From assembly GCF_003569765.1 (NCBI RefSeq), contig NZ_QXMG01000031.1, forward strand, positions 1 through 64,000: a stretch of 64,000 bases of DNA. The letters run 5' to 3'. Under the pieces are notes generated by a model. That model had not been told where the DNA came from. It saw only the letters and a list, made by a program, of their open reading frames with translations, and searched no databases. The stretch's first letter is position 1, and every line of letters begins with the position of its first letter. Below, piece by piece: positions 20,197 through 32,229 of the stretch. This stretch comes from Caldimonas tepidiphila. GTDB taxonomy: Bacteria; Pseudomonadota; Gammaproteobacteria; Burkholderiales; Burkholderiaceae_C. The position numbers and the translations under genes are program-made.

Positions 20197-21424
<1,228 letters not shown>

Positions 21425-29916: not shown

Positions 29917-30417
29917 TCAGCCCTCGGCGAGCAGTTTCTCGACCAGCTGGTGCAGCGCCGCGAAGTCGGGCTCGCCGACGTAGCGCTTGACGATCTCGCC
30001 GCGCTTGTTGATCAGGTAGGTGGTCGGCGTGAGCTTCACGTCGCCGAAGCCCTTGGCCACCGCGCCGGTGTTGTCGATCGCGACCTTGAACGGCAGCTTG
30101 CGCGACTCGGCGAAGCTCGCGACGTAGGCCGGCGGGTCGTAGTTCATCGCGACGGCCACGAAGTCCAGCCCGCGCTCGCGGTACTTCTCGTAGGTCTGCA
30201 CCATCTGCGGCATCTCCTTGACGCAGGTGACGCAACTCGTGGCCCAGAAATTCACCAGCACCACCTTGCCCTTGAACTGCTCGCTGCTGTGCGTGCTGCC
30301 GTCGAGCAGCGCGTAGTCGACGCGCGGGGCGGCGTGGGACGATCCCATCGCGAGCCAGGTGGTGACGGCGATGGCCAGGGCGAGTGCGGCGGCGATCAGA
30401 TAGCCGGATTTCTTCAT
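29917..30417 (-). CDS. TlpA-like thiol-disulfide oxidoreductase
   Basis: A 166-residue periplasmic thioredoxin-like protein held by an N-terminal membrane helix (SGYLIAAALALAIAVTTWLA). The active site is WATSCVTCVKEMPQM, a CVTC variant of the CxxC motif, and TPTTYLINKRGEIVKRYVG holds the cis-proline typical of TlpA and ResA. Members reduce disulfides for cytochrome c or metal-centre assembly; the partner is not known here. ATG 30417 gives MKKSGYLIAA; a GTG nine bases upstream (30426) is the alternative. The gene is convergent with the DMT gene. Confidence 0.9.
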   Translation of the reverse strand: MKKSGYLIAAALALAIAVTTWLAMGSSHAAPRVDYALLDGSTHSSEQFKGKVVLVNFWATSCVTCVKEMPQMVQTYEKYRERGLDFVAVAMNYDPPAYVASFAESRKLPFKVAIDNTGAVAKGFGDVKLTPTTYLINKRGEIVKRYVGEPDFAALHQLVEKLLAEG

Positions 30418-30513
30418 GGGAGGCACCTTCCGGGAAGCGGCGCGAGTTTACGCCGCGGGGGCTGCCCCGCGCCCGAAGCGACAGCCGCGAGGCAGCGGGA
30501 GATTTCACCCTTG

Positions 30514-30580
30514 TGACAACTACTTGGGGCGCCGGTTCCCATCTTTTCAACAGGCTTACCCACGAAAACAGTGGAAAACT
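30514..30580 (+). repeat. repeat unit 1
   Basis: TGACAAC at 30514, TTTTCAACA at 30544, TTACCCACG at 30556 and the reverse-strand TTTTCCACT (30570-30578). It is the most diverged in the right arm (GTGGAAAACT). Confidence 0.85.
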
Positions 30581-30643
30581 CCTGCCCGCGGACAGCGCGC
30601 GGAGACGTGACCGGCGCCGATGCAGGATCGTTTTTCCCTGGCG

Positions 30644-30710
30644 TGACAAGGACTTGCCATGACTGCGCCCATGTTTCCCACAGCCTTCTCCACGCCGGCA
30701 GTGGACAAGT
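30644..30710 (+). repeat. repeat unit 2
   Basis: TGACAAG at 30644, TTTCCCACA at 30674, TTCTCCACG at 30686 and the reverse-strand TTGTCCACT (30700-30708), ending GTGGACAAGT. Confidence 0.85.
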
Positions 30711-30778
30711 GGAAGGCGCGGCGGGGTGCCTGCAAGGCTCGTGAGCCTTTGTTGCAGCAACGGCGGTTTTTACAATCC

Positions 30779-30845
30779 TGACAAGCACTTGAGGGGCCTG
30801 CCCGCACCTTTTCAACAGGCTTCTCCACGGTTTGCGTGGACAAGT
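30779..30845 (+). repeat. repeat unit 3
   Basis: TGACAAG at 30779, TTTTCAACA at 30809, TTCTCCACG at 30821 and the reverse-strand TTGTCCACG (30835-30843), ending GTGGACAAGT. A 10-bp GC-only stem, GGTCCCGGGC (30859-30868) with GCCCGGGACC (30879-30888), follows just before the proQ stop. Confidence 0.85.
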
Positions 30846-30901
30846 CCCCGGCGCGGCCGGTCCCGGGCCCGAAGGGGCGCCCGGGACCCGGGGCGCGGGC
30901 C

Positions 30902-31957
30902 TCAGGCGCGCGGGGGGCGCCCGCCGCCGGGCTTGCCGGAGCGCGGGCCGGACGGGCCGCCGGAGGCGTTGCGCGGACCGCGCGCGCCACCGCGCTCGTC
31001 GCCGCGGCCGCGGCCACCGCCGCCCTCGCGCCGGCCCTCATCGCGCCGGTCCCCGCCCTCGCGCCGGCCGCCGTCACGGCGCGGGTCGCGCGGCGCGCCC
31101 CGTCCGCGCTCGCCGCCGGTGTCGCCGCTCGCCTCGCGCAGCAGCCGGTCGAGCTGCGCCGGGTGCATGCGCCGCGAGGCCGCGAAGGCCGGCACGTTCT
31201 GGCCGCTGGCGCGGAAGGCCTCGAGCAGCTCGGTGAGGAACTGCTTGCGCTGGCGGCGCTCCTCGCTCGCCTGCGCGAGCAGCGCGTCGAGCTGTGCCGC
31301 CTCCACGCCCTTGAGGGCGCAGAAGTTCTCGCGCGTGAGCGTCGTGGTCTCGAAGGCGGCGAGCAGCGACGCGCGCTGCAGCCGCTCGGCTTCCGCCGCG
31401 CGTTCCGCCGCGAGCCGCTCGTCCTCGCGGCCGCGTCGCTGCTTGATCGTCTCGGCGGCGAGGCGGCGGTGCTCCTCCGACAGCTCGCCGGCGGGCTGGC
31501 CGTCGAGGTCGAAGCGCTGCGTCTGCGTGCTGACCGCCTGCAGGTAGGCATCGGTCATCGTGTAGCGGCGCAGGAAGGCCGACAGCGTCTGCTTCGGGAA
31601 CACGCCCGGGGCGCGCGCGTTGATGTCCTGCTGGATGCGCAGCTTCAGCGGCTTGGGTCGGCCGCCGAACAGCGCGGGGTAGAGCTCGCGCAGCTTCGCC
31701 GCGCAGGCCTTGACGCTCATTTCCGCGCCTTCCGCGCGGCGCGGCGCGGCTTCCGCGGCTTCTGCGGCCTCGGCCGGCAGTGCCGGCTCCTGGGCGGCCT
31801 CGGGCGGCTCGCCGGCGGGGGCGGGGGCCCCTGCCGACGACGCGTCGGGGACGCAAGCGTCCGCAGCGGGAGCCGGCTGCGGCGCGGCCGGGGCCTCGGG
31901 CGTCGGCAGGGAGGGGGTGTCGCCGCTGGCGGGGACGGTGTCGTCGTTCGGATTCAT
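30902..31957 (-). CDS. ProQ/FinO domain RNA-binding protein with disordered flanks
   Basis: A 351-residue protein built around a ProQ/FinO RNA chaperone domain (about 82-190), recognised by KLRELYPALFGGRPKPLKL, DINARAPGVFPKQTLSAFLR and YTMTDAYLQAV. The first 80 residues are an Ala/Pro/Glu-rich region; after the domain comes a charged helical part (ETIKQRRGREDERLAAERAA) and an Arg/Gly-rich tail from about residue 295. Proteins of this family bind structured small RNAs and mRNAs. ATG 31957 is chosen; a TTG at 31966 has GGAG nearby and would add three residues. Its upstream region contains a candidate small RNA in the opposite direction. Confidence 0.88.
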   Translation of the reverse strand: MNPNDDTVPASGDTPSLPTPEAPAAPQPAPAADACVPDASSAGAPAPAGEPPEAAQEPALPAEAAEAAEAAPRRAEGAEMSVKACAAKLRELYPALFGGRPKPLKLRIQQDINARAPGVFPKQTLSAFLRRYTMTDAYLQAVSTQTQRFDLDGQPAGELSEEHRRLAAETIKQRRGREDERLAAERAAEAERLQRASLLAAFETTTLTRENFCALKGVEAAQLDALLAQASEERRQRKQFLTELLEAFRASGQNVPAFAASRRMHPAQLDRLLREASGDTGGERGRGAPRDPRRDGGRREGGDRRDEGRREGGGGRGRGDERGGARGPRNASGGPSGPRSGKPGGGRPPRA

Positions 31958-32229
31958 CGGTGGCAAGGGGCTCCGGATCGCGCCGCGGCAGATGCCGCGC
32001 CCCGCCCGGAAGCGTCATGGGGAATGCTGTTGGCCGCCATTCTGAGGCCTGCCGCCGCCGACCTCCCCCGACGGGGGATCCGCAGGGGATTTCCGGGCCC
32101 CGGATTCCTTTGCACCGGGGCCGCGACCGGCGACCGACACCCGGGGAAGGCCGCGCGCAAAGCGGTGTGCCCGCATATCCCTCCGGCATGCCTTGTTATG
32201 GTAGTCATCGGGATTTTCTGCTCTAAAGT

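Follow-up and report, generated by a model that had tools for sequence, protein, structure and literature searches.

Candidate DARS-like modules of three DnaA boxes and an IHF-like site between tlpA-like and proQ genes of Caldimonas tepidiphila

The window, that is the whole stretch of DNA analysed, comprises 64,000 nucleotides of a C. tepidiphila contig. Between a redoxin/TlpA-like gene and a ProQ/FinO-family gene it possesses an array of three units, situated 5' of the former and 3' of the latter. The units occupy 30514-30578, 30644-30708 and 30779-30843. Their TGACAA motifs start at 30514, 30644 and 30779, with box III beginning 30 bp downstream of each, and the start-to-start distances are 130 and 135 bp. 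The earlier note had described the array between these two genes, with these coordinates, the 30-bp offset and a period of 130-135 bp, and all of this was confirmed. Its proposal of a control region for proQ was not supported because the array lies downstream of that gene.

Each unit is composed of a 13-mer TGACAA..ACTTG, 17 bp, box III, 3 bp, box II, 5 bp and an inverted box I. Every box is 9 bp long, and in all three units boxes III and II are co-oriented and box I is opposite to them, a layout termed (3,5) here. The 13-mer carries an IHF-like CAA-N4-TTG, which is found 17 bp before box III in 3/3 units. The three 9-mers per unit had been claimed to match TTATCCACA at 7 of 9 positions in the same order and orientation from unit to unit; this holds for all nine boxes (two mismatches each), the third box being on the minus strand. 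The CCACG...GTGGA palindrome is formed by box II facing the inverted box I. The features are as follows.

29917..30426, minus strand: redoxin/TlpA-like gene (Pfam Redoxin, 1e-27), array 5' of the gene
30514..30526, plus strand: unit 1 IHF-like 13-mer, CAA-N4-TTG, 2 mismatches to WATCARNNNNTTR, 17 bp before box III
30544..30552, plus strand: unit 1 DnaA box III, TTTTCAACA, 2 mismatches to TTATCCACA
30556..30564, plus strand: unit 1 DnaA box II, TTACCCACG, 2 mismatches, 3 bp after box III
30570..30578, minus strand: unit 1 DnaA box I, inverted, TTTTCCACT, 2 mismatches, 5 bp after box II
30644..30656, plus strand: unit 2 IHF-like 13-mer, 2 mismatches, 17 bp before box III
30674..30682, plus strand: unit 2 DnaA box III, TTTCCCACA, 2 mismatches
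30686..30694, plus strand: unit 2 DnaA box II, TTCTCCACG, 2 mismatches
30700..30708, minus strand: unit 2 DnaA box I, inverted, TTGTCCACT, 2 mismatches
30779..30791, plus strand: unit 3 IHF-like 13-mer, 2 mismatches, 17 bp before box III
30809..30817, plus strand: unit 3 DnaA box III, TTTTCAACA, 2 mismatches
30821..30829, plus strand: unit 3 DnaA box II, TTCTCCACG, 2 mismatches
30835..30843, minus strand: unit 3 DnaA box I, inverted, TTGTCCACG, 2 mismatches
30902..31966, minus strand: ProQ/FinO-family gene (Pfam ProQ, 5.2e-25), array 3' of the gene

A composite pattern written from the units had three matches in the window, and 100 dinucleotide-preserving shuffles gave none. When 169 spacing combinations were scanned, the window gave three box triples, all of them (3,5), while 20 mononucleotide shuffles gave none. 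The three units do not differ in any of the 30 constrained columns, and of the 34 other columns 13, 16 and 15 agree between units; the constrained columns were picked after the units were known, so this contrast is descriptive only. The units are not recent plain duplications, because so few of their non-motif columns agree, and a general repeat search of the window did not report the unit family. Measured against the DARS box criterion, at most one mismatch to TTWTNCACA, and counted by hand, four of the nine boxes show one mismatch and five show two. A second IHF site downstream, present in many hemE-priA copies described below, is missing from the window units, and a clear upstream TGC..GCA dyad was not seen in them. 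An RNA element was rejected as the Rfam search found no RNA family at the array. Elsewhere in the window, Rfam reported an anti-hemB sRNA (RF02837) at 21335-21424 on the plus strand with 68.3 bits.

To place the layout among known systems, it was compared with the DnaA-binding loci of E. coli K-12. DARS1 (L233:1608-1642) reads TAATACACA-TGG-TTATCCACA-GGAAT-AGTGGATAA, and the DARS2 stretch taken as the core (L232:136-170) reads TTCTTCACA-ACT-CTATCCACA-GAAAA-GGTGAATAA. Both are III-3-II-5-I with box I inverted, which is the layout of the window units. The DARS2 core was located via the deletion primers printed in PMC4585315 (consulted in excerpt), and the same primers ruled out another triple near L232:450, also of (3,5) spacing. 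Excerpts of PMC5742627 describe the same box spacing for both DARS and a box I whose direction is opposite to that of II and III, and they name a head-to-head arrangement of DnaA on boxes I and II as a prominent DARS feature. DARS2, in the mutH region, resembles the window units in that its core has three boxes spaced 3 and 5 bp with box I inverted, and in that an equally oriented IHF-like site lies on the side of box III. It has two IHF-like 13-mers 3 bp apart on that side, the nearer 58 bp away; an excerpt of PMC4245941 gives IBS1-2 as paired IHF sites 3 bp apart. By our reading IBS1, 58 bp from box III, would match the window units in core side and orientation. The distance between IHF site and core is different, 17 bp here against 58 bp in E. 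coli, and so are the several compact copies per genome, the weaker boxes of the window and the Fis sites, which here are putative at most. DARS1, between bioD and uvrB, has identical three-box geometry but needs no protein factor (PMC4585315, excerpt), whereas the units here include an IHF-like site of their own.

E. coli datA is located near oriC. It also combines DnaA boxes with an IHF site and has two boxes 3 bp apart, but it lacks the (3,5) triple with an inverted box and its function is ATP hydrolysis. Identity with datA was rejected since the window's triple is absent from it. At the relaxed threshold neither datA nor oriC of E. coli showed a (3,5) triple, and other triple spacings were also present in the E. 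coli stretches. A sequence model of the unit matched the E. coli loci over the boxes only (best E 1.7e-4). The earlier note had suggested iterons, datA or DARS as parallels; the DARS kind agrees with the (3,5) geometry and the IHF-like site at 17 bp, and the other two do not. Plasmid iterons were rejected as the neighbours are ProQ- and redoxin-like and the units differ outside the motif.

The distribution of the unit among relatives was analyzed by pattern and by model. A pattern search within the family, allowing three mismatches or fewer, found it in 55 of 299 genomes and 31 of 141 genera, and the reversed pattern matched once in the 299. The model rests on 43 units, some of them taken from genomes that were afterwards searched with it, and its E-values are rough; at E<=0.001 it matched 241 of 250 genomes of the family. 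A finer search covered 25 genomes selected from those already with matches, and every one was matched over at least model positions 5-101. In a class-wide draw 213 of 281 genomes were matched, and many among the matches listed cover the boxes only. DNA homology of the whole array was detected in 2 of 60 genomes at E<=0.001, namely the own genome and one relative, the latter via the DnaA boxes. An exact scan of 84,980 species genomes with a 20-base pattern, which may omit records very near the own genome, gave 82 hits in 79 stretches. By title, 69 of these belong to genera which we take to be Burkholderiales or beta-proteobacteria. Five are titled merely Proteobacteria, Pseudomonadota or uncultured bacterium (L134, L183, L186, L196, L207), and five as other groups (L148, L175, L178, L191, L195).

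The commonest place of the module among the loci examined is the hemE-priA gap, and 44 of the 79 stretches carry hemE and/or priA. Four units from outside the family also adjoin priA (L077, L078, L079, L081). The 55 distinct hemE-priA intergenics (24 kb), mostly fetched for holding a unit so that rates in them are not population rates, possess exact TTATCCACA 60 times against a shuffle mean of 0.06, and the exact IHF motif WATCAANNNNTTR 94 times against a mean of 0.52 and a maximum of 3 in 50 shuffles. The reversed DnaA-box and IHF motifs were found 0 times. Exact TTATCCACA is present in 50 of the 55 and the exact IHF consensus in 48. Across genera, 37 instances have a forward box 42 bp after a forward IHF site, and 20 have the next forward IHF site 40 bp after a forward box. 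With box II taken as the box, these spacings correspond to an IHF-17-core-17-IHF arrangement. Outside the positions set by the search pattern, T before CAA is found in 62 of the 82 hits and a preceding A in 63, together the AT of the IHF consensus.

A TGC..GCA dyad lies upstream of the IHF-like site in 67 of the 82 hits; its stricter form TGCC..GGCA is found upstream in 29 and downstream in none. In many relatives this conserved TGCC..GGCA dyad is positioned at about -38 to -21, just upstream of the IHF-like site. As a Fis site it fits weakly, 8 of 43 units being within one mismatch of the Fis consensus there against a mean of 0.66 over offsets. The A/T tract before the IHF-like site was left out of the argument because it is seen in several own-genome units and not in most relatives.

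The box spacing predominates in these collections also. In the 587 kb of the 79 stretches there are 25 strict triples, all (3,5); the search pattern imposed the 3-bp gap but left the 5-bp gap and box I free. Of the 82 hits, 25 have a box I with two mismatches or fewer at gap 5, and the 15 other gaps together give 6. At the relaxed threshold 33 of 38 triples show (3,5) spacing, and 33 of the 55 hemE-priA intergenics contain such a triple. The dnaA loci served as control: 39 of them, own and relatives', gave no box triple at the strict threshold. The power of this control is limited because the same threshold finds merely 9 triples in the 55 hemE-priA gaps; moreover some dnaA loci begin at a contig start and are short on the side before dnaA. 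The DnaA gene was found in the own genome. Its oriC region has a CAAGGACTTG site and two boxes in head-to-head orientation with 5 bp between them, and model matches there are weak (best 14.2 bits). The array was thus not regarded as an oriC copy, as the 39 dnaA loci hold no strict triple and the own oriC region shares single elements only.

In its own genome the unit is found at several places. The pattern search with three mismatches or fewer gave five copies and its reversed control none, and the model gave 11 matches, two of them weak. These are the window's three, C15:68288, C30:53895, C56:30868, C100:1257, C11:45962 in the hemE-priA gap, C30:6445, and the weak ones on contigs C43 and C18. 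The (3,5) layout is present in 8 of the 11, allowing up to four mismatches per box and eight in total; in the C100 copy the boxes have 1, 5 and 3 mismatches. The C43 match falls within a long open frame, and its alignment contains an insertion. The own hemE-priA gap reads TTTCCCACA-AAG-TTATCCACA with IHF-type sites and a poor box I. The C30:6445 copy lies 5' of an exbB-like gene with an xseA-like gene on the other side. The latter name was given by eye, and all names so marked rest on no family search. The xseA-like gene (by eye) is a second recurrent place, as a (3,5) three-box core adjoins it in two genera (own C30, L222 2446-2497; G034, L003 1502-1536); these cores have exact TTATCCACA as box II and lack the IHF-like site at 17 bp.

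Many scattered copies without conserved position had been named as the finding that would reduce the array to an ordinary dispersed repeat. This is not what was seen: the genome holds the 11 model matches, two of them weak. A dispersed mobile repeat was rejected on this number and on the 13-16 of 34 non-motif columns agreeing among the window units. The exception is the pair on C56 (L218 2869-2972) and C100 (L219 1257-1360), alike at 93 of 104 bases. Each of the two adjoins a gene matching Pfam DUF3701 (phage integrase protein), these genes being paralogues, and one is also near a transposase-like gene (by eye). From this pair, modules may travel with mobile genes.

Several copies per genome would suit a titration locus, where the boxes sequester DnaA and IHF aids assembly, without nucleotide exchange, on the model of datA in its older sense or of the DnaA-box clusters of Bacillus subtilis. 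The position of the priA-side copy is also in line with this. Such a unit was among the loci fetched in 16 of 24 single-contig relatives (in G292 hemE is outside the locus); for the remaining eight there was none among the fetched loci, which are a subset of their matches. In the 16 genomes the copy lies at 3.6-18.4% of genome length from dnaA, with a median of 9.7%, and such nearness to oriC suits early doubling. The C30:53895 copy and the weaker C18:39998 are between convergent genes by ORF calls, which also fits titration. Sequestration, however, needs no inverted third box at 5 bp, yet wherever there is a box I this spacing is the predominant one (33/38 relaxed triples, 25/31 pattern hits with a box I), and weak boxes make poor traps. 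The B. subtilis clusters outside oriC are likewise several per chromosome, six according to an excerpt of PMC13220808; the same excerpt gives that species as without IHF, DARS and datA loci and describes no ordered three-box layout for the clusters. Taken together, titration is considered unlikely here, with more in its favour than the two readings treated next.

Whether the array keeps its place relative to oriC and proQ was a check proposed in the earlier note, and the outcome is divided. Position is conserved for the family of modules, with hemE-priA as the most frequent place among the loci examined, and not for the window locus. Neither the window's tlpA nor its proQ was found in any of the 79 stretches at E<=1e-10. 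Upstream of tlpA, a unit is missing by the model in 8/8 congeners (within 1.5 kb and within about 6 kb), the 7.5 kb fetched at tlpA contain no exact DnaA box or IHF consensus, and proQ was not found there. The window array is therefore a novelty of its own species among the nine genus genomes searched. This bears on transcriptional control, in which DnaA and IHF would regulate the adjacent gene, tlpA here and priA elsewhere. The array is directly 5' of tlpA and the hemE-priA copies are 5' of priA, but tlpA stands without a unit in all eight congeners, C30:53895 and C18:39998 are between convergent gene ends, and the Azohydromonas units L172 and L189 lie beyond the priA start region. This explanation is thus held to be improbable. 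L172 and L189, and also L019 and L021, are multi-unit arrays positioned beyond the priA start region and not between hemE and priA.

The species-specific locus among nine genomes, with two mismatches to TTATCCACA in nine of nine boxes, could also represent decaying relics, the functional modules being elsewhere (hemE-priA, C15) and the local copies degenerating after a species-specific rearrangement which joined proQ to tlpA. Decay would not give 30/30 identical constrained columns beside 13-16/34 others, with the reservation that the columns were chosen after the fact. We consider it a slim chance, marginally slimmer than transcriptional control.

The array is read here as three compact DARS-like modules which would recharge ADP-DnaA, a reading towards which we lean slightly. 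It draws on the box order and directions, the 3- and 5-bp spacing, the IHF-like site at 17 bp, the conservation and the ori-proximal priA copy. On this DARS-like reading, IHF on the CAA-N4-TTG site would bend the DNA, and ADP-DnaA would occupy the co-oriented boxes III and II and the inverted box I. The head-to-head DnaA pair on boxes I and II would then release ADP, giving apo-DnaA which could rebind ATP. Binding of DnaA and IHF and exchange of ADP for ATP at the modules are deduced from these likenesses, and the degenerate local copies of this species are presumed to be still active. Against the DARS reading stand the window's boxes, none of the nine being consensus, and its IHF-like 13-mers with two mismatches. 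The absence of the window locus in 8/8 congeners and the poor box I of many relatives (gap-5 box I in 25 of 82 pattern hits) count against it as well. So do the hemE-priA intergenics, where a (3,5) triple is present in only 33 of 55 at the relaxed threshold, the other triple spacings in the E. coli stretches, the lack of a clear Fis site and the missing downstream IHF site of the window units. Because of these imperfect sites and poor box I, the elements shared by oriC and an IHF distance unlike that of DARS2, DARS function is put at about an even chance and titration at about half as much.

DARS loci are reported from E. coli, its relatives and Vibrio (PMC6090056, excerpt). An excerpt of PMC4245941 restricts conservation of the DARS2 core to gamma-proteobacteria related to E. 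coli, and an excerpt of the review PMC5742627 gives beta- or gamma-proteobacteria. Among the open-licence PMC papers listed, judged mostly by titles and the starts of abstracts, none describes DARS in Burkholderiales, and the excerpts of PMC3135505, PMC10218098 and PMC6090056 describe no such Burkholderiales loci. It is conceivable, and somewhat less probable than the reading of the array itself, that Burkholderiales have a distributed DARS system with several compact IHF-coupled modules on each chromosome. An ancestral ori-proximal array at hemE-priA (IHF-17-core-17-IHF) would be its anchor, and lineage-specific expansions like the window array would add to it. If so, ADP-DnaA recycling would be wired beside the replication-restart gene priA near oriC. 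If the modules recharge DnaA, replication control through ADP-to-ATP exchange would be more widespread and more modular than it seems from E. coli. With units this compact one could ask which spacings matter, and whether copy number and distance from oriC set the timing of initiation.

A few units were found outside these places and groups. In the stretches L148, L175 and L195, titled Acidobacteria or Pyrinomonadaceae, the (3,5) core is complete and has CAA-N4-TTG 17 bp away. By eye, the adjoining gene is ftsK-like, and in two of the three a comEA-like gene lies on the opposite side. L178 (titled Sulfurivirga) and L191 (Lysobacterales) have units that score highly and share 96 of 105 bases; the genes flanking them look by eye fnr-like on one side and pfkB-like on the other, and binning errors are possible for these two stretches. 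Weak model matches in short arrays, with starts about 120-220 bp apart, are present in G104, G178, G221, G256, G286 and G292, at a different place in each genome.
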